Shown: in pieces, positions 7,943 to 36,706 of the stretch
How positions within the stretch are numbered: position 1 is the first letter of the stretch
How the letters are laid out: every line of letters begins with the position of its first letter
Origin: a virus
Virus record (IMG/VR): IMGVR_UViG_3300042905_004491
Location: 1-39,224 of that record
DNA: 39,224 nucleotides
Reading direction: 5' to 3' (one strand)
Program-made: the position numbers and the translations under genes
Notes under the pieces: generated by a model
Databases searched by the model: none
Seen by the model: only the letters and a program-made list of their open reading frames with translations
What the model was told of the DNA's origin: nothing

Positions 7943-8800
7943 TTAATCTTCTGCTAGAGACTTGAAATAATCTAGTTCTTCATCTTCAATGTCTGGTGAA
8001 GAACGTGGTGTAAACTCTTCAGCCTTTGTCTTAGAAACTGGTGCAGTACCATCAAGACCAAGAACCTTATCAAGTTTTGCTTTCAACACATCATATGACT
8101 TAAAGTTTTTGGGATCAAGAAACTCTTTGAGTGAATATTCTTTTTTCCACAGTGCTTCAAGTTTAGCATCATCACCATCAAACAATGCTGAAGGAGATTC
8201 AAACTCAGACTTGTCATAGTTGCGATAACCTTCAACTTGACGAATCTTGATTTTGAAATTAGCACCATCCCAGAAGTCAAATGGATTAATTGCTTTCTCA
8301 TCTTCAAACTGAGGATTCATTGCTTCAGTCAGTTTGTCGAAAATTTTCTTACCAAACTTGTACAGTTTGATTTGACCTTCGTTCTCTGGATTCTTAGGAT
8401 CAGAAACGATCAGCACATTTGAAATGTATGTAAGACGGCGCTTCTGCTTACGTGCGATTTCTTTATTTGCTTCGATACCAGAGTTCCACAACACAGAGTT
8501 ATACTCTGATACTGGGTCTTTCTGATTCAAAGTAGTCAAAGAGTTTTCGATATACCAGCCACCCGGACCTTGAAAGCCGTGATTGAAAACACGAACCCAA
8601 GGAAGTGCATCATCACCATCTACTGCTGGTGCTGGCAGAAAACGAATCACTGCCATACCGTTGCCAGCTTTGTCTGTTTCTGGTTGCCAAAAACGATCAT
8701 CGTCTTTAGAACCTTCTGCTGGAGTGTTAATTGATTCAATCGCTTTGGTGAGTTTGTCGAACGAATTGCGATTGCGTTTAAGAGAAGAAAAATCTGCCAT
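7943..8800 (-). CDS. gp32: Single-stranded DNA-binding protein gp32
   Basis: The 285-residue protein matches T4-type gp32. The N-terminal basic segment SSLKRNRNSFDKL corresponds to the cooperativity (LAST-like) region, the OB-fold core includes AVIRFLPAP, VFNHGF and GGWYIENSLTTL, and the tail is acidic (EDEELDYFKSLAED), the protein-interaction tail. It coats ssDNA in replication, repair and recombination. It contains no cysteine, so the T4 zinc site (three Cys and one His) is absent; the equivalent place reads NQKDPVSEY. GAGG precedes the ATG. It lies downstream of gp33-gp59-HAD and upstream of a strong terminator. Confidence 0.95.
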   Translation of the reverse strand: MADFSSLKRNRNSFDKLTKAIESINTPAEGSKDDDRFWQPETDKAGNGMAVIRFLPAPAVDGDDALPWVRVFNHGFQGPGGWYIENSLTTLNQKDPVSEYNSVLWNSGIEANKEIARKQKRRLTYISNVLIVSDPKNPENEGQIKLYKFGKKIFDKLTEAMNPQFEDEKAINPFDFWDGANFKIKIRQVEGYRNYDKSEFESPSALFDGDDAKLEALWKKEYSLKEFLDPKNFKSYDVLKAKLDKVLGLDGTAPVSKTKAEEFTPRSSPDIEDEELDYFKSLAED

Positions 8801-8826: not shown

Positions 8827-9369
8827 TTAAAAAGTATGTGCGTCTTGTCCACGTGATTCATTATATACTGATATATATGTGTCGTCAAGAACAGATTGCA
8901 CGATTTTTATCGTTTTCGCCGTGTCTTTGTGAAGAATGCCTATGCCACCTGCCATATTAAAATCATCAATGACATCTTGGGTATCATCAATAATTACAAT
9001 GTCGGATTTGGCGTAGTCTGCTTTCAAATGACGACCAGGTACGATATTGGCTTTAAAATCAATGTTATAATTTTTCAACCAAACCTTTTTCTGCCGCTTT
9101 ACTTCTTCGTGATGCATACGACCACCAGAAGAAGAAAGTATCTCTACAGGTATATCCAGTGAGATAATGTACTTCATTAATTCTTTACCACCAGGATACC
9201 ATTCAAGTGTTTCAAAATTTTTGCCGTCTACAAAACGATTCCAATTATCATCATGTTTTTCACCACGTTCACGGCTGCTTGATGCTTTTTGTTGAAAAAG
9301 TTCTTTGTATCTTTTACCAAAATCAGAAAGAACACCATCCATATCAAGATATATTTTTTGTATTCGCAT
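8827..9369 (-). CDS. HAD-superfamily phosphatase, 5'(3')-nucleotidase-like
   Basis: The 180-residue product begins IYLDMDGVLSDF, the HAD motif I with nucleophile Asp in DxDGV. Motif II is ILSSSGG, and the C-terminal motif is DIVIIDDTQDVIDDF with paired Asp residues. The size and order resemble deoxyribonucleotidase-like or NagD-small HAD enzymes of phages, which could dephosphorylate nucleotides or other small phosphates; the substrate is not visible. It overlaps the end of gp59 by 26 nt and lies between gp59 and gp32, a place that has no such gene in T4. Confidence 0.8.
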   Translation of the reverse strand: MRIQKIYLDMDGVLSDFGKRYKELFQQKASSSRERGEKHDDNWNRFVDGKNFETLEWYPGGKELMKYIISLDIPVEILSSSGGRMHHEEVKRQKKVWLKNYNIDFKANIVPGRHLKADYAKSDIVIIDDTQDVIDDFNMAGGIGILHKDTAKTIKIVQSVLDDTYISVYNESRGQDAHTF

Positions 9370-9955
9370 CGTATTCCTTTTTGAGTATGAGTTTGTATTT
9401 TGTTGGTTCGAATGGTATGAATGGTGTGTATTTCTTTATTTTTTTACTGACGTTTGGATAATGAATCGTGTCACCAATCTTTCGATCCCACGATGGTAGA
9501 AACTCAAGCACTTTGTTCAGTATGCACACAGTCTCAAGTGAGATTTCCTCATGTAGCAACTTGATCAATAGTTCTGGATATTCACCATCGTGCGACATAA
9601 ACAAGTCATTTGGCTTGCCATGACTCATTAATGATTCAATCTCATTCGTAAAGGTATACGTCAAAGACTGAATAATCTTTTGTCGTTTGCGATACTCCTC
9701 ATCAGATTCATTGGTGAGAAGATGCCCTACCCAGACATCCTGGTTATGAACCAAATTAGCAACAAGAAAATCACGGCATATATCAACATTTGCGAATCTC
9801 CGACTTAGTTTGTAAAAGTGCCATTTATCTTTTCGATTCTCAAATGCTTCAATGCTTGTGCTTACTTTACCGTGATACTTAAAGTAATCGTAAGAATCTG
9901 AATTAAAGTGTAGTTTGAGAGAAGTGTATAAACAGAATGCTTCATAGCCCGTCAT
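9344..9955 (-). CDS. gp59: Replicative helicase loader gp59
   Basis: The 203-residue product resembles T4 gp59 along its length. The N-terminus has YEAFCLYTSLKLHFNSDSYDYFKY, then RKDKWHFYKLSRRF and the conserved FLVANLVHNQDVWVGHL (compare the SNLVANQDAWIGD stretch of T4). A second half with LLHEEISLETVCILNKVLEF follows. gp59 loads helicase gp41 on gp32-coated forks. Its ATG overlaps the stop of gp33, and gp32 is two genes downstream, preserving the T4 order 33-59-32. Confidence 0.9.
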   Translation of the reverse strand: MTGYEAFCLYTSLKLHFNSDSYDYFKYHGKVSTSIEAFENRKDKWHFYKLSRRFANVDICRDFLVANLVHNQDVWVGHLLTNESDEEYRKRQKIIQSLTYTFTNEIESLMSHGKPNDLFMSHDGEYPELLIKLLHEEISLETVCILNKVLEFLPSWDRKIGDTIHYPNVSKKIKKYTPFIPFEPTKYKLILKKEYDANTKNIS

Positions 9956-10176
9956 ATCGGTAAACGATTACCTTTCACTTTTAACATATTTAAACGTTCT
10001 GCTTGCTCATGAATCTTTGACTTTAGATTTGGTGTGATGAGTGAAGCAGCAACTTCCAATTCTAATCCAGTCTCTTTACAGTGTTCAGTGATGGCCTCAA
10101 GATATGTGTAATCTGTGTTGGCCACCAGTCTCTCTATCTGTAAAGAGAACTTGAGCATTTCATCTTTGGTTGGCAT
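9952..10176 (-). CDS. gp33: Late transcription accessory factor gp33-like
   Basis: This 74-residue protein aligns by eye with T4 gp33 in the segment YLEAITEHCKETGLELE and the following LITPNLKSKIHEQAERLN. gp33 binds the beta-flap of host RNA polymerase and links it to the sliding clamp for late transcription. It is shorter than T4 gp33 (112 aa) and lacks most of the N-terminal extension. Position immediately upstream of gp59, with overlapping start and stop, supports the identification. The presence of T4-type late boxes elsewhere fits its role. Confidence 0.75.
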   Translation of the reverse strand: MPTKDEMLKFSLQIERLVANTDYTYLEAITEHCKETGLELEVAASLITPNLKSKIHEQAERLNMLKVKGNRLPI

Positions 10177-11742: not shown

Positions 11743-12453
11743 TTAATCCCAAAGGCCACGGTAGTATTTGCCAAACAAACGAAAACCGTTATCCATGCGA
11801 TCATAAACTTTGTTCATACCATCATAGTCACATTCATATGTGTGATTGGGACCATTTACCATTTGTGACAATTTGGGATTATCTTCACATGGCACAAACT
11901 GCATATCGATATGACCAGAACGATATGCTTCTTCCCATGAGTCATCAAGCAGATGTTCAAAGGCAAAAATCATTTCATTCAACACCCATTCCCAACGACG
12001 ATGTGTGATATCCCAAGATTCTTTTTCATATTGTTCATCACCTTCAAACTTAAAACTGAATTGTGATGAATCATTTTCATAACCAACGATACGTAGTTCT
12101 TCTGGCACATCTTCAAGATCAACCATAGGTGAACCATGTTTTGTTGCTTGAAGTTGTTTGAGCATCGGCAAAATAATATTTGCTAATGTGTGATCCATTG
12201 ACCAAGTATCGTACTTGTCAATACGCACTTTGATTTTGCGTTCTTTGTGACTTTCTATCCACTGACAAAACTTAGTTAGCCAAGAATCATTACCATTCTT
12301 ATCTTCGGCCAACCATGTACCAAAGTCATGAACCCAATCAGGATGTCGTTTGAATCCATACTCATCAGGTACTTTTTTTACCCAAAAGCAAAGCAGTTCT
12401 GCTAATTGATAAGGACCAAACCAGTTTGTATAAGGACCAATGTAAACACGCAT
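11743..12453 (-). CDS. Conserved phage protein of unknown function (YIGPY family)
   Basis: The start is set at ATG 12453 (MRVYIGPYTNWFGPYQ); upstream codons lie in the tmRNA coding piece. The product of 236 residues is rich in Trp, Asp and Glu and includes DVPEELRIVGYENDSSQFSF and RWEWVLNEMIFAFEHLL. Such proteins with the GPYxxWxGPYQ opening are common hypothetical proteins in T4-type phages of marine bacteria. No catalytic motif is visible. Confidence 0.75.
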   Translation of the reverse strand: MRVYIGPYTNWFGPYQLAELLCFWVKKVPDEYGFKRHPDWVHDFGTWLAEDKNGNDSWLTKFCQWIESHKERKIKVRIDKYDTWSMDHTLANIILPMLKQLQATKHGSPMVDLEDVPEELRIVGYENDSSQFSFKFEGDEQYEKESWDITHRRWEWVLNEMIFAFEHLLDDSWEEAYRSGHIDMQFVPCEDNPKLSQMVNGPNHTYECDYDGMNKVYDRMDNGFRLFGKYYRGLWD

Positions 12454-12473
12454 AATGTATCTCTGAATTTGAT

Positions 12474-12505
12474 GTGGGTTGTTTTGGTAATAAGGTACAA
12501 CCCAC
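12474..12505 (-). other. Hairpin closing the tmRNA coding piece
   Basis: A nine-base-pair stem, GTGGGTTGT with ACAACCCAC, closes a 14-base loop shortly after the tag stop codon. It may be the 3' structure of the coding piece. The next gene starts 21 nt further on. Confidence 0.5.
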
Positions 12506-12525
12506 TTAAACCCCAGCAAGGCTAT

Positions 12526-12558
12526 TTAAGCAGCCATTGCGTAGTAATTATCGTTTGC
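12526..12558 (-). other. tmRNA tag reading frame ANDNYYAMAA
   Basis: The resume codon is GCA at 12558-12556, preceded by TTATCT, with U at -5 and A at -4 as in the E. coli tmRNA. Ten codons (GCA AAC GAT AAT TAC TAC GCA ATG GCT GCT) lead to TAA. The tag has the length of the E. coli tag and ends in Ala-Ala, as expected for a proteolysis signal. Confidence 0.9.
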
Positions 12559-12771
12559 AGATAATTTATTTGCTTGATTTACAGTCATCGCCTACTGTGT
12601 TGCCTTCTCCACTATCTCACCCTGTCGAAACCAGGTCTAGCCCATCAGAAATGTCCTGCTGTTCACAGGTCGGGAATTCCAATCCTCAGAGTCTTGTTAA
12701 ACTTTTACATATCACCCTAAACAACACTTCTGGTGGACTAGGGCGGAGTCGAACCGCCGTCCAGAATGCCT

Positions 12772-12951
12772 TCACTTTGAAGGAGTTACAACAATTCTTT
12801 CAACTGGCACACAACGTGCCACGATATAATCTCTGTGTCGCACAATCGTACTTGCCACTTCTTGGCACTGTTCAAAATTCTCAAATGTTTTCCATTGTGA
12901 TTCTGTAACTGAACCTGAAATGATGACCGTTACAATTAATGCGTAAAACAT
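12772..12951 (-). CDS. Small exported-looking protein, 59 aa
   Basis: ATG 12951 overlaps the previous stop (TAATG) and the frame runs 59 codons to TGA at 12772. The product opens with a short hydrophobic stretch (FYALIVTVIISGSV), followed by FENFEQCQEVAS and ARCVPVERI, with two Cys that could pair in the periplasm. Short proteins of this layout recur in marine phages. Its last codons form the CCTTC/GAAGG hairpin at the 5' edge of the tmRNA acceptor piece, so the mRNA and tmRNA precursor appear to be one transcript. Confidence 0.65.
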   Translation of the reverse strand: MFYALIVTVIISGSVTESQWKTFENFEQCQEVASTIVRHRDYIVARCVPVERIVVTPSK

Positions 12952-13118
12952 TAGTCTGATACTACAATGAATCCTTCTTGTTGCATTTGTTTATGAAATT
13001 CATTTTTCTTCATAGCATACCAACCCCAAGAACCAAAAAATGTTGTGCCTGGATTTGGTCCTTGTTCTCTCAAGTACGCATCAAGTTTTTTATCGTATTC
13101 TTTTTCAGTAATTTGCAT
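12951..13118 (-). CDS. Small conserved-looking protein, 55 aa
   Basis: ATG 13118 lies 1 nt after the stop of the upstream gene; 55 codons end in TAA at 12951. The product is ITEKEYDKKLDAYLREQ, then FFGSWGWYAMKKNEF and a short tail ending VVSD. It is soluble and helical. The tight packing on both sides and absence of stops support it as a real gene. The function is unknown. Confidence 0.65.
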   Translation of the reverse strand: MQITEKEYDKKLDAYLREQGPNPGTTFFGSWGWYAMKKNEFHKQMQQEGFIVVSD

Positions 13119-13119
13119 A

Positions 13120-13650
13120 TCACACCGTTGTAAATCTTGCTGAACCTTTGCTCGTTCTTCCTGGCTTCAACGGCTTATCAGACTTTGGTTTTGTTTCTGT
13201 TTGAAATGGTGCATGTGGCTTATTGAAAGCCATCTTGCCTACATTCTCTGTCTTGCCGTGACCTGGGAATCCTGTTTTGTTTGTTCCGTGTAAGGTCGCT
13301 GTTTTTCCATCATGATGTAAGATTGAGTCTTGATTATAATGTTCTCCATGTTTCTTGATATCATGGAGCAACTGTTTGCCGTGTTCATCTCCTTTTCCCT
13401 TTGCATGTACCAAAATAGACTTCTCTTTACCACCTTCCCAATGACCTTCAACATCTTTGTGAGTGTAGCCTTGTGCAGTCAGTTTCTTTTTCAGTTCTTC
13501 GTGATTCTTTTTGTTTTGTTCCGGCGACACTTCATCATGAGGTCGCTGTGATGAAAGAATCGCATAATGGCGACCTTCTTCCGCATGTTTAGCCAATCTT
13601 GCTAATGGATTGCCTTCATCTAATTGTGTATGTTGTTTGAATGATAGCAT
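13120..13650 (-). CDS. DUF3293-like conserved phage protein
   Basis: The 176-residue product has GRHYAILSSQRP, an EQNKKNHEELKKKLTAQGY helix, and GHWEGGKEKSILVHA. This order (AILSAxxP, xxENxxxxxxL, a short G-x-W motif, then ExSxxV) is that of the DUF3293 family; the assignment is by eye. The C-terminus is basic and rich in His, Gly and Lys. It has a GGAGG site and a T4-type late box 23 nt upstream. Confidence 0.6.
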   Translation of the reverse strand: MLSFKQHTQLDEGNPLARLAKHAEEGRHYAILSSQRPHDEVSPEQNKKNHEELKKKLTAQGYTHKDVEGHWEGGKEKSILVHAKGKGDEHGKQLLHDIKKHGEHYNQDSILHHDGKTATLHGTNKTGFPGHGKTENVGKMAFNKPHAPFQTETKPKSDKPLKPGRTSKGSARFTTV

Positions 13651-13665
13651 AGTGCCTCCGACATG

Positions 13666-14331
13666 TCAAGCATATTTATCAATCATTTCAATCAACGGTT
13701 GCCGGTAATCGTGAATCTGTTTTTCGAATACCTGCGCTGGTCCTTCTTCGGTAGCAATCAGTACCACAATGTCATCAATCCAAATACCAGTTCGTTCAGC
13801 AAACATCAGTGCATATGCTGTACACTGCATAAAGTAGTTCTGAATGTAATCTTCATCTTTCTGTTTTGTGGATGTCTTGAAATCAATGACTGACAACTTA
13901 CCATTCCATTCAGCAATCAAGTCTACACGACCAGCAATTCTAAGTTTATCGGAATACAGTGCTTGCTCTTGTGAATAAACTTTACCAACGTTCTCATCAA
14001 TGATTGGCTTGATTTTGAAAAACAATTCTTTCAGATCAGGCATCAACATCTGCATTCTGAAATCGTTTATTTCGTTGTTGATATAATCTTCACAAATCTT
14101 ATGTACCTTTGTACCACGGTTTGATGCCTTGCGTGATATCTCGTTTGCTCTCTCTTCACCTACAGCCTGTCGCCATTCAAAAAGGGCTTTCTTGCCGTAA
14201 TTGGAAAGTACCGTAGTGATAGACTTATACTTGTTGCCTTCAGGCGTAGTATAGAGTCTACCACTATCAGTAGTTTCTGCTTTTAGGTCAAATTGTAGTT
14301 GCGGTAACTTTACATGATCAAATGTTCGCAT
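13666..14331 (-). CDS. PD-(D/E)XK exonuclease, RecB/Cas4-like
   Basis: The 221-residue protein has the PD-(D/E)XK core: GRVDLIAEWNGKLSVIDFKTSTK at about 135-157, with Asp in GRVD, then DFKT carrying the Asp and Lys pair, followed by QCTAYALMF as the distal helix motif. An upstream RGTKVHKICEDY supplies the conserved His/Glu. It probably degrades or processes DNA ends. It starts 3 nt after the PhoH stop, so the two are co-transcribed. Confidence 0.8.
   Translation of the reverse strand: MRTFDHVKLPQLQFDLKAETTDSGRLYTTPEGNKYKSITTVLSNYGKKALFEWRQAVGEERANEISRKASNRGTKVHKICEDYINNEINDFRMQMLMPDLKELFFKIKPIIDENVGKVYSQEQALYSDKLRIAGRVDLIAEWNGKLSVIDFKTSTKQKDEDYIQNYFMQCTAYALMFAERTGIWIDDIVVLIATEEGPAQVFEKQIHDYRQPLIEMIDKYA
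13673..13680 (-). promoter_or_regulatory. Candidate T4-type late promoter box (GATAAATA)
   Basis: GATAAATA differs by one base from the T4 late consensus TATAAATA. It is followed by GGAGG and the ATG at 13650, so a short leader would result. It lies inside the end of the upstream nuclease gene. Confidence 0.45.
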
Positions 14332-32500: not shown

Positions 32501-32574
32501 TGGAGCGGGATATCAGAATCGAACTGATAACAGGAGCTTGGAAGGCTCACGTTTTACCATTAAACTAATCCCGC
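32501..32574 (-). tRNA. tRNA-Gly(TCC)
   Basis: Acceptor GCGGGAT/ATCCCGC, anticodon loop CTTCCAA, T-loop TTCGATT and encoded CCA. It sits apart from the main array, just upstream of the AbrB-like gene. Confidence 0.95.
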
Positions 32575-32580
32575 ATTAAA

Positions 32581-32871
32581 CTATTTGATGAGAATCTCTT
32601 TTCGTTCTACATCTTCACCATTTGGGTGATGATATGCGACATACCCATCTTTATCTTTATATGTTACACCATTCCAATAGTATTGCTTGTTTTTGAAATA
32701 AGCAATACGCTCATCACTATATTCATTTATGTCAATCTTCAAATTGCCAAGCCATTCTTGCCAATTGTCATCGGCATATTCAGAAATCTTTACTGCTTCT
32801 TCTTCGGTGTCTGCTTCAATCACGTAAACGTTACGAAAAACAGACATTTGCTCAACGATATACTTAGGCAT
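32581..32871 (-). CDS. Small phage protein of unknown function
   Basis: ATG 32871 with GGAGAG upstream overlaps the previous stop. The product is about 96 residues: PKYIVEQMSVFRNVYVIEAD, TEEEAVKISEYADDNWQEW and a basic-aromatic C-terminus (YYWNGVTYKDKDGYVAYHHP). Compact, acidic, no membrane segment. Function unknown. Confidence 0.6.
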   Translation of the reverse strand: MPKYIVEQMSVFRNVYVIEADTEEEAVKISEYADDNWQEWLGNLKIDINEYSDERIAYFKNKQYYWNGVTYKDKDGYVAYHHPNGEDVERKEILIK

Positions 32872-33157
32872 TTTCACTCTCCAACGAAAAATGAATTTCT
32901 TTGATTGAATCCCAACGAAATGAACGCCAGCCTTCTTTTTCTAAATCATAAACAGCAAGAACTTCATCACTTTTTGTTTTTTCTGAGCCGACTGTTTCTG
33001 GAAGATAGTCTTCCATCAATGTACATTTCATTGTACGCTCAGTTCCGTCTTTTTTCGTAAAAACAATTTCGACAGGTCGTTCTTCAAGCAAACCAATCAA
33101 CCATTTACGACCTTTTTTTGCATCTTTACTATCACCAGCAAAAACATTTTTTTCCAT
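32864..33157 (-). CDS. WYL_2/DUF2693-like small protein
   Basis: The 97-residue product matches the DUF2693 pattern: GLLEERPVEIVFTKKDGTER, TMKCTLMEDYLP, then EVLAVYDLEKEGWRSFRWD, a WYL-like beta-barrel. Such proteins in T4-type phages are thought to bind nucleic acid or nucleotides. It lies between a DUF-like upstream gene and the 32581 gene in a tight series. Confidence 0.75.
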   Translation of the reverse strand: MEKNVFAGDSKDAKKGRKWLIGLLEERPVEIVFTKKDGTERTMKCTLMEDYLPETVGSEKTKSDEVLAVYDLEKEGWRSFRWDSIKEIHFSLESENA

Positions 33158-33162
33158 AATTT

Positions 33163-33597
33163 TTACTCCGCTAAAGATTTGAGTGCTTCATTCACTTTTT
33201 GCTTAAACTTACCATTTGTAATAAAATCAAGATACTCAACCCACCAATTTTCTGATGTTTCTGTTTTTTTCACAATACAACCTGACAAACCGGAGCCGAC
33301 CAGATTTTTTATGTACACAATTGGATCGGCAAGTATAGCTTCAAATGCATCATCGAACTGCGGCATGCCATCTTCGTCTTCTTTGAAGAATGCCATGTGA
33401 TATTTGTAGCCCATATTTGACTTTTCTATGGGTTTCGCCATTGTCCACTCTTCTTTGAAGTTGAAAAATGCTAATTTATAGTTGCCTTCATAGTCATCAT
33501 AGTCAGGAACAAAGTAAAAACCGTCAAATTTACTCATTTCATCGCCGGAAATTGCTTCGGCTTCAATTTTTTGCATTTTTTCATCAGAAGATGGCAT
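33163..33597 (-). CDS. Phage protein of unknown function
   Basis: ATG 33597 (MPSSDEKMQKIEAEA) has TAGGAAAATTT upstream. The product of 144 residues has DGFYFVPDYDDYEGNYKLAF and VGSGLSGCIVKKTETSENWW. The protein is acidic and soluble. No family is recognised. Confidence 0.6.
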   Translation of the reverse strand: MPSSDEKMQKIEAEAISGDEMSKFDGFYFVPDYDDYEGNYKLAFFNFKEEWTMAKPIEKSNMGYKYHMAFFKEDEDGMPQFDDAFEAILADPIVYIKNLVGSGLSGCIVKKTETSENWWVEYLDFITNGKFKQKVNEALKSLAE

Positions 33598-33742
33598 AAA
33601 TTTTCCTAAAATTTTGTTTTTCAACTGCTCGGTTATGAATTTTTGTCGCCGAATGCTCAACTTTCATGCGAAACTTCGGCGTGAACAAGTCTTTAGCAAC
33701 AAAATTTCGTGGTTTTTGCAACTTTTGTGATTTTTTATTCAT
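33584..33742 (-). CDS. Small basic protein, 52 aa
   Basis: The chosen ATG (33742) gives NKKSQKLQKPRNFVAKDLFT and a basic tail ending RKIYAIF. It lies 7 bases after a -10 box (TATACT), so the message would be nearly leaderless. The frame overlaps the next gene start by 14 nt. Lysine- and arginine-rich; a nucleic-acid-binding role is plausible but unproven. Confidence 0.5.
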   Translation of the reverse strand: MNKKSQKLQKPRNFVAKDLFTPKFRMKVEHSATKIHNRAVEKQNFRKIYAIF

Positions 33743-33749
33743 AGAGAAC

Positions 33750-33778
33750 AGTATACAACAGAAAAATTTGCTTGTCAA
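33750..33778 (-). promoter_or_regulatory. Host sigma70-type promoter
   Basis: TTGACA (33778-33773), 17-nt spacer, TATACT (33755-33750). It begins directly after the CCA end of tRNA-Ser(GCT) and drives the genes downstream of the tRNA array. Confidence 0.85.
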
Positions 33779-33779
33779 G

Positions 33780-33867
33780 TGGCGGAGAGTATAGGATTCG
33801 AACCTATGCGTCACTTTCGCAACGACGGTTTAGCAAACCGCTGCCTTAACCACTCGGCCAACTCTCC
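33780..33867 (-). tRNA. tRNA-Ser(GCT)
   Basis: Acceptor GGAGAGT/ACTCTCC, loop TTTGCTAAA with anticodon GCT, long variable arm, T-loop TTCGAAT, encoded CCA. The 3' part of the 33811-33972 frame overlaps it. Confidence 0.95.
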
Positions 33868-33972
33868 CAAAATTACCGCTAAACCATAAAAAAGTGCCAT
33901 CATGAGTGCGACACTAACACCCATAAGCACCCAGTAACAAATAATTGTTAGAATAATTTTTAATGTTACCAT
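33811..33972 (-). CDS. Possible small membrane protein running into tRNA-Ser
   Basis: ATG 33972 opens a 53-codon frame with LKIILTIICYWVLMGVSVAL followed by MMALFYGLAVILG, two short membrane segments, and a basic tail encoded by the tRNA-Ser(GCT) sequence. The frame is free of stops for its whole length, and the hydrophobic part lies between a tRNA-like element and tRNA-Ser. No strong ribosome-binding site is visible. The call is tentative. Confidence 0.4.
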   Translation of the reverse strand: MVTLKIILTIICYWVLMGVSVALMMALFYGLAVILGELAEWLRQRFAKPSLRK

Positions 33973-33986
33973 ATTTTCTTTTATTT

Positions 33987-34058
33987 TGGTGTCTCAGTTT
34001 GGATTCGAACCTTGTCCTAGTGTTGTCCATCTGTACGTCCCACCGTACTGACCGAGAC
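33987..34058 (-). tRNA. Degenerate tRNA-like element
   Basis: It has a full acceptor stem (GTCTCGG/CTGAGAC), discriminator A, encoded CCA and a TTCGAAT T-loop, but the T-stem pairs poorly, no seven-base anticodon loop with U33 can be drawn, and GGACAA is directly repeated in the middle. A D-arm-like GTACG/CGTAC hairpin remains. It looks like a decaying tRNA; it could also be an unusual functional RNA. The amino acid cannot be assigned. Confidence 0.5.
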
Positions 34059-34061
34059 ATT

Positions 34062-34151
<90 letters not shown>

Positions 34152-34156
34152 TAAAC

Positions 34157-34234
34157 TGGAGCAACGGGTCAGATTCGAACTGACGGCTTTAGGGATTTGC
34201 AGTCCCTTGCATTGGACCACTCTGCCACCGTTGC
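34157..34234 (-). tRNA. tRNA-Cys(GCA)
   Basis: Acceptor GCAACGG/CCGTTGC, anticodon loop CTGCAAA, T-loop TTCGAAT, discriminator T, encoded CCA. Confidence 0.95.
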
Positions 34235-34239
34235 ATTGT

Positions 34240-34314
34240 TGGTGCATCGTGATGGATTCGAACCACCGACAACCTGCTTGTAAGGCAGGGATTCTACCAC
34301 TGAACTAACGATGC
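34240..34314 (-). tRNA. tRNA-Val(TAC)
   Basis: Acceptor GCATCGT/ACGATGC, anticodon loop CTTACAA, T-loop TTCGAAT, encoded CCA. Confidence 0.95.
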
Positions 34315-34340
34315 ACATCGCCTCACACGCTTACTTATAT

Positions 34341-34415
34341 TGGTAGTAGTGGTAAGATTCGAACTTACACCTGACACCGTATGAAGGTGGCGCACTACCA
34401 TTATGCTACACTACC
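34341..34415 (-). tRNA. tRNA-Met or Ile2 (CAT)
   Basis: Acceptor GGTAGTG/CACTACT with a G-U first pair, anticodon loop TTCATAC with CAT, T-loop TTCGAAT, encoded CCA. It lacks initiator features, so it is an elongator Met or a lysidine-type Ile (AUA) tRNA; sequence alone cannot decide. Confidence 0.9.
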
Positions 34416-34417
34416 AC

Positions 34418-34491
34418 TGGTTGTCCCGACAAGAATTGAACTTGTAATGGTCGATTATCAATCGACAGTTATACCATTTAACTACAGGACA
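34418..34491 (-). tRNA. tRNA-Ile(GAT)
   Basis: Acceptor TGTCCTG/CGGGACA, anticodon loop TTGATAA, T-loop TTCAATT, encoded CCA. Starts with U1. Confidence 0.92.
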
Positions 34492-34492
34492 A

Positions 34493-34568
34493 TGGTGGTG
34501 CCTGTTGGAATCGAACCAACTTCCGAGGCTCTTCAGGCCACTGCTATGACCACATCAGCTAAAGCACC
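34493..34568 (-). tRNA. tRNA-Phe(GAA)
   Basis: Acceptor GGTGCTT/AGGCACC, anticodon loop CTGAAGA, T-loop TTCGATT, encoded CCA. The anticodon stem has one U-U mismatch. Confidence 0.92.
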
Positions 34569-34576
34569 AATCTTTA

Positions 34577-34717
34577 TTACCACTGCGCTTCTTTATATAC
34601 TTCTCTTGCGTCACTACCACATTCCGGACAATTTGCAAATGCTGGCAAATCTTCCAGTTTACCTTCTACTGATTCATCGTGCGTATGACCACACACTTCG
34701 CAAACGTACACTTTCAT
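34577..34717 (-). CDS. Rubredoxin-like protein, 46 aa
   Basis: ATG 34717 behind GGAG opens a 46-codon frame ending TAA 34577 within the tRNA array. The product has two Cys pairs in rubredoxin form: YVCEVCGHTHDESVEG with CxxC, and FANCPECGSDAREVYK with CPxCG. The iron would be held by four Cys, as in electron-transfer rubredoxin or the C-terminal domain of rubrerythrin. It may deliver electrons to the separate diiron protein at 31826-32254. The gene is short and overlooked by length filters. Confidence 0.88.
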   Translation of the reverse strand: MKVYVCEVCGHTHDESVEGKLEDLPAFANCPECGSDAREVYKEAQW

Positions 34718-34738
34718 AACTTCTCCTATTAAAAAATT

Positions 34739-34813
34739 TGGGGTGTCTAACGAGTACCGACCTCGTACCTACTCTTTCACAGAGAGTAATGCTACCACTA
34801 CACCATAGACACC
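34739..34813 (-). tRNA. tRNA-His(GTG)
   Basis: Anticodon loop CTGTGAA, acceptor GTGTCTA/TAGACAC, with G-1 facing discriminator C as in histidine tRNAs, encoded CCA. The T-loop reads GTCGGTA instead of the usual TTCRAxx form. Confidence 0.9.
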
Positions 34814-34815
34814 AT

Positions 34816-34889
34816 TGGCCTCGGTGGAGAGAATCGAACTCCCACTAACGGTTTTGGAGACCGCTGCGCTGCCATTACGCCACACCGAG
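34816..34889 (-). tRNA. tRNA-Trp(CCA)
   Basis: Acceptor CTCGGTG/CACCGAG, discriminator G, anticodon loop CTCCAAA, T-loop TTCGATT, encoded CCA end. Confidence 0.95.
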
Positions 34890-34893
34890 ATAT

Positions 34894-34968
34894 TGGAGCG
34901 GGTAGTCAGATTCGAACTGACGACATTTTCCTTGGCAAGGAAACATTCTACCCCTGAATTATACCCGC
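34894..34968 (-). tRNA. tRNA-Gly(GCC)
   Basis: Acceptor GCGGGTA/TACCCGC, anticodon loop TTGCCAA, T-loop TTCGAAT, discriminator T, encoded CCA. Its 5' base is the last base of the YkuK-like stop codon. Confidence 0.95.
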
Positions 34969-35435
34969 TACGCTACTAAACTTTTGAAACGATCTGCCGC
35001 ATAACTTGCAGCAAATGCTTTTGGCTTTATCAATGGTATCACATTACATGTACCACGTATATAACCAATCGCTTCATTTACCACACATGAACTACCATGC
35101 ATTTCACTTGGGTTGATATCCAAATGAATTTGTATGTCATGCGGTATAACTTCATACAATTTCAAATACAAATCAGCCACTTTGTATACTTCATTCATCA
35201 AACGAAAACGTGGTCGACTTTTCTTTTGTTCGAAATCACGTTCACGTTGTACAGCACCAAATATTTTACAACCGTGACGACCATCGATATGAACGACAAC
35301 AGCCAAAATGTAGTCAGCGTACCATTCACCCTCAATCTGAAATCGTTCAGAATCGGCGCCAACATACACTTTTGTATCAGGACCACATGTATCAAGAAAT
35401 GCGGCAACTTCGTTCACATCAATTTCTTTTTTCAC
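34968..35435 (-). CDS. YkuK/DUF458-like RNase H-fold protein
   Basis: The 155-residue product starts with GTG 35435, preceded by AGGTGAAAT. It has VYVGADSERFQIEGEWYADY, an RNase H-like first strand with Asp, then IQIHLDINPSEMHGSSCVVN, AIGYIRGTCNVIPLIKPKAF and AASYAADRFKSL. This is the DUF458 (YkuK) RNase H-like family. It lies within the tRNA array and its stop runs into tRNA-Gly. A role in RNA or DNA processing is possible. Confidence 0.75.
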   Translation of the reverse strand: MKKEIDVNEVAAFLDTCGPDTKVYVGADSERFQIEGEWYADYILAVVVHIDGRHGCKIFGAVQRERDFEQKKSRPRFRLMNEVYKVADLYLKLYEVIPHDIQIHLDINPSEMHGSSCVVNEAIGYIRGTCNVIPLIKPKAFAASYAADRFKSLVA

Positions 35436-35448
35436 ATTTCACCTATAA

Positions 35449-35524
35449 TGGTTGCAGAGGCAGGATTCGAACCTGCGATTCCCGGCTTATGAGACCGGAC
35501 GGATGACCTCTTCCATACTCTGCG
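35449..35524 (-). tRNA. Initiator tRNA-fMet(CAT)
   Basis: Acceptor CGCAGAG/CTCTGCA leaves C1 opposite A72, the mismatch that marks bacterial initiator tRNAs. Anticodon loop CTCATAA carries CAT. The three GC pairs of the classic initiator anticodon stem are only partly kept (CCGGT/GCCGG). Confidence 0.85.
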
Positions 35525-35530
35525 ATAGTC

Positions 35531-35604
35531 TGGTGCCCGTTGACAGAATCGAACTGCCAATCCATGATTACAAATCAAGTGTTATACCATTTAACTAAAC
35601 GGGC
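35531..35604 (-). tRNA. tRNA-Thr(TGT)
   Basis: Acceptor GCCCGTT/AACGGGC, anticodon loop TTTGTAA, T-loop TTCGATT, encoded CCA. One mismatch in the anticodon stem. Confidence 0.92.
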
Positions 35605-35611
35605 AATACTC

Positions 35612-35686
35612 TGGTGGAGAATAGCAGATTCGAACTGCTTATTCATGCTTGCAAAGCACGTGTTTTCCCAATTAAACTAATTCCCC
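35612..35686 (-). tRNA. tRNA-Ala(TGC)
   Basis: Acceptor GGGGAAT/ATTCTCC has the G3-U70 pair that identifies alanine tRNAs. Anticodon loop TTTGCAA, T-loop TTCGAAT, encoded CCA. Confidence 0.95.
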
Positions 35687-35779
35687 ATATTGAAACATAC
35701 TGCCTTTGCGACACCTCTTCAAAGAAGACTCCAGCAATGCAGAACGACTCAGCGGTCTTTGCAATATGTTTCAATATGG
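35685..35779 (-). repeat. Long-stem hairpin A between tRNA-Arg and tRNA-Ala
   Basis: The 90-nt spacer forms a 15-base-pair perfect terminal stem (CCATATTGAAACATA with TATGTTTCAATATGG). The arms begin at the CCA of tRNA-Arg and end at the first G of tRNA-Ala, so it would bring the two tRNA ends together. The inner part (about 65 nt) has no coding frame or tRNA. Confidence 0.85.
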
Positions 35780-35852
35780 TGCGTCCTAAAGAATTCGAAT
35801 CCTTAACTTGAGGTCCGTAGCCTCATGTGATATCCAGTTTCACCAAAGACGC
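35777..35852 (-). tRNA. tRNA-Arg(ACG)
   Basis: Acceptor GCGTCTT/AGGACGC, anticodon loop CTACGGA, T-loop TTCGAAT, encoded CCA. Its A34 would need deamination to inosine to read CGU/CGC/CGA. Confidence 0.95.
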
Positions 35853-35860
35853 ATTCAACT

Positions 35861-35942
35861 TGGTGGGTTGAGTAGGGATCGAACCTACTTGCCGAAGCCA
35901 CGGGTTTACAGCCCGCTGCCCTACCATTAGAGCATTCAACCC
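35861..35942 (-). tRNA. tRNA-Tyr(GTA)
   Basis: Acceptor GGGTTGA/TCAACCC, anticodon loop CTGTAAA, long variable arm, T-loop TTCGATC, encoded CCA. Confidence 0.95.
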
Positions 35943-35949
35943 ATATTAC

Positions 35950-36025
35950 TGGCAGGGAGTATAGGACTCGAACCTATGCATGTCGGAATCAAAATCCGAT
36001 GCCTTACCAACTTGGCGAACTCCCA
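35950..36025 (-). tRNA. tRNA-Gln(TTG)
   Basis: Anticodon loop TTTTGAT, T-loop TTCGAGT, discriminator G, encoded CCA. U1 faces U72, matching the weak first pair required by glutaminyl-tRNA synthetase. Confidence 0.92.
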
Positions 36026-36028
36026 ACA

Positions 36029-36152
36029 ATATTAGAATTGCAGTCTGCACTATTTGCTATGCTCAACGGAATGACCGGCCGGCTTTACCGTTTGTGTACA
36101 TAGTTACGCAGGCATGATCAAGCCCATGGCTTACAGACTGCAAATCTAATAT
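36029..36152 (-). repeat. Long-stem hairpin B between tRNA-Asn and tRNA-Gln
   Basis: The 126-nt spacer begins with ATATTAGATTTGCAGTCTG after tRNA-Asn and ends with its complement, an 18-of-19 match. The inner 86 nt holds several small GC-rich hairpins (for example AAGCC-ATG-GGCTT). No coding frame or tRNA is visible in it. It is the largest of three such spacers. Confidence 0.8.
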
Positions 36153-36230
36153 GGCTCCGCATTTGAGGATCGAACTCAACTAACCAGTGGTTAACAGCCA
36201 CGCCCATGCACCAAGCTCGGGTTCTGCGGA
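36152..36230 (-). tRNA. tRNA-Asn(GTT)
   Basis: Anticodon loop CTGTTAA, acceptor TCCGCAG/ATGCGGA (last pair mismatched), discriminator G, T-loop TTCGATC, encoded CCA. Confidence 0.92.
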
Positions 36231-36237
36231 ACAATTC

Positions 36238-36315
36238 TGGCGACATGTACGGGATTCGAACCCGTGGTCTCCGCCGTGACAGGGCGGCGCATTAGGCCAA
36301 CTATGCTAACATGCC
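36238..36315 (-). tRNA. tRNA-Asp(GTC)
   Basis: Acceptor GGCATGT/ACATGTC, discriminator G, anticodon loop CTGTCAC, T-loop TTCGAAT, encoded CCA. Confidence 0.95.
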
Positions 36316-36392
36316 ATATTGAAGCACATTGGGACTCCATTGGAGTTAATTATCTTTGGAACAACCCTCAGAACCAATGTGCTTCAATATGG
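36314..36392 (-). repeat. Long-stem hairpin C between tRNA-Lys and tRNA-Asp
   Basis: The spacer forms a perfect 19-base-pair stem (CCATATTGAAGCACATTGG and its complement at 36374-36392), closing a 41-nt inner part with an ACTCCAATGGAGT hairpin. Its arms again reach the CCA of one tRNA and the first base of the next. Confidence 0.9.
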
Positions 36393-36466
36393 TAGGTGCG
36401 GTGGGATTCGAACCCACGACTCTCAGATTAAAAGTCTGATACTCTAACCAGCTGAGTTACACACCC
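36390..36466 (-). tRNA. tRNA-Lys(TTT)
   Basis: Acceptor GGGTGTG/CGCACCT, anticodon loop CTTTTAA, T-loop TTCGAAT, encoded CCA. Confidence 0.95.
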
Positions 36467-36476
36467 ATAATATAAT

Positions 36477-36551
36477 TGGTACACCCAACCGGATTCGAAC
36501 CGGTGTTACTGCCGTGAAAGGGCAATGTCCTGACCACTAGACGATGGGTGC
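36477..36551 (-). tRNA. tRNA-Glu(TTC)
   Basis: Acceptor GCACCCA/TGGGTGT, anticodon loop CTTTCAC, T-loop TTCGAAT, encoded CCA. It is the first tRNA downstream of the promoter at 36593-36621. Confidence 0.95.
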
Positions 36552-36592
36552 ATCTCACAAACTTTTTAAAGAACAATCAATCGACAAACATC

Positions 36593-36621
36593 ATTATAAT
36601 CAAACTTCAAAACTCTGTCAA
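36593..36621 (-). promoter_or_regulatory. Perfect-consensus host sigma70 promoter for the tRNA array
   Basis: TTGACA (36621-36616), 17-nt spacer, TATAAT (36598-36593), upstream of tRNA-Glu. It would transcribe the array toward lower coordinates. tRNA-Pro lies upstream of it. Confidence 0.9.
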
Positions 36622-36629
36622 CTACTTTT

Positions 36630-36706
36630 TGGTCTGAGTGGAGAGGATCGAACTCCCGACCTCCTGCTCCCAAAGCAGGCATTCTACCAGGCTGAACTAC
36701 ACTCAG
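36630..36706 (-). tRNA. tRNA-Pro(TGG)
   Basis: Acceptor CTGAGTG/CACTCAG, anticodon loop TTTGGGA, T-loop TTCGATC, discriminator A, encoded CCA. It sits between a terminator and the array promoter, so expression depends on read-through. Confidence 0.95.

Follow-up and report, generated by a model that had tools for sequence, protein, structure and literature searches.

A permuted, two-piece tmRNA gene of the betaproteobacterial type is encoded on the minus strand of the window, by which we mean the whole stretch of viral DNA that was analysed: a linear IMG/VR record of 39,224 bases that is a fragment without complete ends. The gene is real, complete and under selection, and it is probably functional. 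We consider it likely, with a probability of about 0.85, that its product is a working phage-encoded tmRNA that would use the SmpB, AlaRS, RNase P and ClpXP-kind proteases of the host. Phage-encoded two-piece tmRNAs are already known and common. One was described in the OM43 phage Melnitz in 2022, and the same study reported 402 phages with a tmRNA and 133 unique structures in public phage genomes, with 53 suggested to be two-piece (PMC9004378). The window adds an example of the beta type from a T4-like phage, in which covariation shows selection on the RNA. The parts that are worth following are the spacer helix with its RNase P-type leader, the place of the gene upstream of gp33, and a group of isolated Samunavirus phages that are ready for the laboratory.

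Architecture of the tmRNA gene and its tag

The initial annotation had proposed a circularly permuted two-piece tmRNA without assigning a strand, and the covariance models and ARAGORN bear this out. ARAGORN called a permuted tmRNA at 12435-12823 on the minus strand with the tag ANDNYYAMAA. An Rfam scan of the window gave minus-strand matches above the cut-off to RF01850 (beta_tmRNA) at 12842-12464 (157.4 bits, E 8.6e-49, cut-off 84) and to RF04321 (tmRNA_permuted) at 12793-12526 (138.8 bits, cut-off 47). The model scores, together with covariation in 20 phage relatives, exclude a chance match. A standard one-piece tmRNA (RF00023) was ruled out, as the two halves stand in reversed order: the acceptor half (12793-12731) is followed by an 87-nt spacer (12730-12644) and then by the coding half (12643-12464). 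The acceptor end CTAGTCC-ACCA at 12731, the GGGCTAG at 12643 and the length of the spacer had all been placed correctly, and the P1, P2, T-arm and G3-U70 elements are as originally described once the gene is read on the minus strand.

The acceptor half contains a 5' helix strand, a P2 strand, the T-arm, the P1 3' strand and an encoded ACCA. The P1 3' strand CUAGUCC (12735-12741) forms all seven pairs with the P1 5' strand GGGCUAG (12643-12637), and its U70 pairs with G3. Together with A73 and CCA this gives an alanine-type acceptor, GGGCUAG/CUAGUCC-ACCA. The T-arm (12742-12758) has a 5-bp stem and a UUCGACU loop, and the P2 5' strand CAUUCUG (12762-12768) pairs with CAGGGTG (12624-12618) in the coding half. 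In addition to the P1 and P2 strands, the coding half holds the tag reading frame (12526-12558), which encodes ANDNYYAMAA followed by UAA, and a 3' hairpin, GUGGGUUGU...ACAACCCAC (12474-12505).

The tag frame runs from GCA to UAA with the resume codon, the stop codon and a hydrophobic C-terminus all present. With the charged alanine the added peptide is AANDNYYAMAA. This is close to the E. coli tag AANDENYALAA and retains the Asn and Tyr that are used by SspB as well as the Ala-Ala end that is used by ClpX. To judge by its residues, ANDNYYAMAA looks like an ordinary degradation tag with the usual C-terminal Ala-Ala. A search with a degenerate tag pattern identified 11 other viral contigs (the siblings), which were used for alignment, and the tag is identical in all 12 records. 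Among the matches listed, the C-terminal Ala-Ala occurs in 76 of the 86 distinct phage tags, and all 41 ten-residue phage tags begin with Ala-Asn. The ending -MAA, as opposed to -LAA, was considered as a mark of phage tags and rejected, as it is found in eight of the 86 distinct phage tags listed and also in one Burkholderiales gene (ANDENFAMAA). Some viral permuted tmRNAs, including L014, L015, L024, L038, L040 and L069, have unusually long tags of 27-31 residues (e.g. ATADTFDFSAMSFTGNSVSGKSKVALAA).

Conserved pairing, the spacer helix and predicted processing

Pairing was counted in the 20 phage relatives with the named structure taken from the window. The pairs were kept in 95.5% of cells, compared with 81.0% in shuffles and 41-55% when the structure was slid along the alignment, a control that is biased towards the named structure because the relatives share kinship and the structure is window-derived. 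Double-sided changes, which do not depend on this bias in P1, P2 and the T-arm, numbered 119 against 43 in the shuffles and affected 17 of the 40 pairs, including two in the T-arm stem and two in P2. Covariation is seen in the 5' helix too. All 20 relatives keep this helix, P1, P2 and the T-arm paired, so the loss of P1 or P2 complementarity that had been named as evidence against the gene does not occur. The fold of the RNA has a z score of -3.2. Among the siblings, P1 is rewritten from GGGCUAG/CUAGUCC to GGGGGUG/CACCUCC or GGGCGAG/CUCGUCC with all seven pairs and G3-U70 retained. Positions 4-6 of the stem covary, and the G3-U70 acceptor stem is kept in every sibling that covers the region. 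The counts of G3-U70 across all viral matches were discarded as evidence, as these bases were fixed by the search pattern. Parallel compensation occurs across the siblings in the T-arm and in the 3' hairpin, with GUGAGUUGU/ACAACUCAC and GUGGGCUGU/ACAGUCCAC as compensatory variants of the hairpin. From the conserved structure it is clear that selection acts on the RNA; it does not follow that trans-translation is what is being selected.

Among the 11 siblings L130 alone looks altered, and L127 is cut by the end of its contig. The L130 gene (3758-4067) has seven intact P1 pairs, a T-loop of GGCAGTA instead of TTCGACT, and AGTTTCGAC instead of GGTTTCGAC, and it appears to be a damaged or divergent copy. 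The 87-nt spacers of the window, L126, L011 and L066 are near-identical despite differing P1 stems and tags, which suggests recombination inside the tmRNA gene.

The spacer itself (12644-12730), which is predicted to be excised, had been regarded as a loop. Judged by its pairing, it is no free loop: it is closed by a covarying helix of 12723-12730 with 12648-12655. Among the 129 distinct phage spacers listed, the register of this helix is fixed, usually from the first base after CCA to four bases before GGG, and its length is mostly 8-13 bp versus 2-5 bp in shuffled spacers. The pairs are exchanged freely across distinct phage spacers while the register is unchanged. The four bases just 5' of the coding half, UGAU in the window (12644-12647), lie opposite ACCA and are a predicted RNase P leader. 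Among the matches listed, 98 of 130 distinct phage genes have TGAT here; A(-2) is present in 123 of the 130 and U(-1) in 122. With this leader facing ACCA, P1 continues into the spacer helix as an almost unbroken hairpin, interrupted by a single mismatch, C74-A(-2). In five bacterial genes with an acceptor end of ACCC or ACCT, the first linker base is G or A to match. E. coli RNase P works best with the combination A(-2)U(-1) and is slowed when the leader pairs with RCCA (PMC9433436). From these two properties we infer that the UGAU leader has been selected to allow RNase P to cut within the long hairpin. The covarying helix that closes the spacer and its usual UGAU end are reported here as additions, and the helix may already figure in the 2004 paper on betaproteobacterial two-piece tmRNA. 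The conserved helix and leader suggest how permuted tmRNA precursors get cut in bacteria and phages alike.

The course of events that we infer, from transcription and processing through charging, SmpB use and tag degradation to a benefit for the phage, is as follows. The gene would be transcribed as one precursor, probably within the same-strand gene series that runs towards gp33-gp59-gp32. One long hairpin would be built in the precursor from P1, the ACCA/UGAU segment and the spacer helix. Host RNase P would cleave it at the start of the coding half, between U(-1) and G(+1), and trimming after CCA would fall to other host RNases. P1, P2 and the 5' helix would keep the two resulting pieces joined. 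The tmRNA would then be charged by host AlaRS via G3-U70 and delivered by host SmpB to ribosomes that have stalled on mRNA that is cut or lacks a stop codon. The ANDNYYAMAA tag would direct the peptide to host proteases of the ClpXP kind. The phage would most likely benefit because ribosomes are kept free while infection destroys mRNA. The reliance on host SmpB is suggested by a search of 36 records (the 39-kb window fragment, the 11 siblings and 24 further tmRNA-carrying phage records, with two annotated complete Samunavirus genomes, SM1 and PA_L9, in the set), in which no SmpB gene was found; host SmpB would therefore be needed, unless the fragments miss the gene.

The same result would fit an RNA that acts as a decoy or inhibitor, competing with host tmRNA for host SmpB and occupying SmpB, AlaRS or stalled ribosomes so that host trans-translation is blocked. 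There is a precedent in the mycobacteriophage DS6A, which like the window carries a tmRNA-like RNA; this RNA has no tag frame, inhibits host tmRNA, and in its CDS-less form inhibited the endogenous tmRNA when expressed in E. coli (PMC11915505). A tag would be superfluous in a decoy, whereas the gene of the window has a complete one, and the tag frame, the stop codon and the Ala-Ala end are kept in nearly all phage genes listed and in all siblings. A working tag argues against a pure decoy, and we regard this explanation as improbable.

Phage context and origin of the gene

The tmRNA gene was proposed to belong to a T4-type phage, and its neighbours support this. Downstream on the same strand lie, in one module, the late-transcription coactivator gp33, a T4-type landmark (9952-10176; PF16805, E 9.5e-19), the helicase loader gp59 (9344-9955; phrog_269, E 2.6e-55) and the single-strand DNA binding protein gp32 (7943-8800; phrog_224, E 9e-114), all on the minus strand. 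The gp32 of the window is closest to those of Kyanoviridae phages, to which it is 57-64% identical. Immediately downstream, a minus-strand gene matching phrog_11543 (11743-12453, function unknown) starts ~10 nt past the RNA. Upstream on the minus strand, a 59-aa open reading frame (12772-12951) whose last codons encode ...IVVTPSK followed by a stop overlaps the acceptor half by 22 nt, and a PD-(D/E)XK exonuclease (phrog_298, PF12705) is encoded at 13666-14331.

L123 and L126 lack the 12772-12951 frame; there, the next upstream gene (12951-13118) has a homologue that supplies the same C-terminal codons. The difference is a gene swap with its junction at the 5' end of the tmRNA. A promoter of its own was rejected for the tmRNA gene: no convincing sigma-70 or T4 late promoter was found directly before it, of the sigma-70-like sites the best is ~0.85 kb upstream (13669-13641), and such sites are no more numerous than in shuffles. 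The window also encodes a protein resembling the phage S-adenosylmethionine lyase family at 13120-13650 (PF23780, E 5e-13); the S-adenosylmethionine lyase of phage T3 blocks host restriction. A cluster of 21 tRNA genes is located at 32501-36706 on the minus strand.

Of the records checked, 12 have both a permuted tmRNA and gp33. In each of them the tmRNA has the same orientation as gp33 and lies 0.6 to 11 kb upstream of it. These records are the window and five siblings, which together amount to about one event, as well as five larger IMG/VR contigs and the isolated Pelagibacter phage HTVC008M. The order is the same in Melnitz (PMC9004378). HTVC008M and Melnitz carry alpha-type tmRNAs and the window a beta-type one, so the place upstream of gp33 is kept despite the differing tmRNA type. 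This fixed place in T4-like phages with alpha- and beta-type tmRNAs is reported here as an addition. No gp33 was found on seven other contigs with a permuted tmRNA, and permuted tmRNAs are thus not confined to T4-like phages.

These observations bear on whether the gene is passive cargo, that is, a host ssrA captured by recombination that is functionless in the phage. tmRNA genes often serve as integration sites, and the Melnitz gene was proposed to have arisen by capture (PMC9004378). Cargo of this kind is hard to reconcile with the compensatory changes in the 20 phage relatives or with a location upstream of gp33 that is common to phages with either type of tmRNA. The tag pattern has no match in the genome_contigs collection, and in a conserved-core tree of 140 genes the window groups with phage genes (7-row set, support 99) and has no close bacterial neighbour. 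Taken together, this makes passive carriage very improbable. That the tmRNA is bacterial and the contig a misassembly or a piece of bacterial DNA has a negligible probability: although the record is an uncultured IMG/VR fragment with incomplete ends, T4 genes flank the tmRNA on the same strand, siblings from other metagenomes have the same arrangement, and isolated phages carry the same kind of gene.

The bacterial counterparts of the gene, the betaproteobacterial permuted tmRNAs of Cupriavidus and others (RF01850), share with it the covariance model, P1, P2, the T-arm and the style of the tag, and the Cupriavidus tmRNA also has the spacer helix and the TGAT leader. Their spacers are about 24-45 nt compared with 87 nt in the window, and their tags differ. 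A permuted tmRNA above 100 bits was found in 17 of 399 sampled Burkholderiales genomes (about 4%). In a first tree, Cupriavidus and two further bacterial genes had fallen within the phage genes. The idea that bacterial permuted tmRNAs are phage-derived was dropped, as a single clade of the 15 bacterial genes was not rejected (AU p 0.78), and no direction of transfer is therefore claimed. A host assignment was also dropped: blastn with the tmRNA and megablast with 20 kb of the window gave no match in the phage collection, and a close tmRNA was not found in bacteria either. In Cupriavidus pinatubonensis HN-2, chromosome 1, chromosome 2 and plasmid p2 all carry permuted tmRNA genes (L187, L188 and L190).

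Permuted tmRNAs in other phages

Two gap-limited patterns run against IMG/VR matched at least 120 and 53 stretches, and with the sibling set included at least about 170 permuted tmRNAs were accepted by ARAGORN and pairing. When 20 listed viral tmRNAs were subtyped, most were above the beta_tmRNA cut-off, and all that matched also match tmRNA_permuted. Like Melnitz and the pelagimyophages, the T4-like HTVC008M has a permuted tmRNA with gp33 downstream on the same strand. Its tmRNA (KC465899.1, 145161-145370; L238/L244) lies between an exonuclease and gp33, as in the window, where an exonuclease is likewise upstream, and it is missing from the annotation of the record. Unlike that of the window it is of the alpha type (RF01849, 83.8 bits) with the tag ANFNEYALAA. 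The Melnitz tmRNA also has another tag and is alphaproteobacterial by the tree of that paper, and Melnitz has a glutamine riboswitch (PMC9004378), whereas no riboswitch was found by the Rfam scan of the window.

Four isolated Samunavirus phages, SM1, PA_L9, FBPa45 and UF_RH6, carry a permuted tmRNA with the tag ANDTSFDVRLAA that is unannotated in their records (ON857939.1, PP869205.1, NC_041877.1 and OQ383211.1; loci L225, L226, L227 and L228), near 2460-2846 in each. PaMx31 was a fifth phage match. The Samunavirus tmRNAs resemble that of the window in matching the beta-type model (101-111 bits; tmRNA_permuted, 116-119 bits) and in having the UGAU leader and spacer helix, an arrangement that is also found in HTVC008M, and in SM1 and PA_L9, as in the window, no SmpB was found. 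They differ in their tag and in belonging to 93-95 kb phages of another genus. These and the HTVC008M tmRNA may be listed in the supplementary table of the Melnitz paper.

The recorded hosts of the Samunavirus phages are P. aeruginosa or Pseudomonas sp., and the tmRNA of P. aeruginosa itself is one-piece. Isolated members and a tractable host with a one-piece tmRNA make it testable what a phage gains from a tmRNA of its own. One tentative idea, which we hold to be possible rather than probable, is that T4-like and some other phages maintain the permuted tmRNA as a part of host takeover. It would be kept upstream of gp33 whichever its type, be processed from a hairpin with an RNase P-optimal UGAU leader, and provide hosts that have a one-piece tmRNA, such as those of the P. 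aeruginosa phages, with a foreign two-piece tmRNA whose tag is chosen by the phage. If this is true, the proteins rescued during infection would receive a phage tag. In two of the Samunavirus loci, L225 and L227, a tRNA-Arg gene lies just upstream of the tmRNA.
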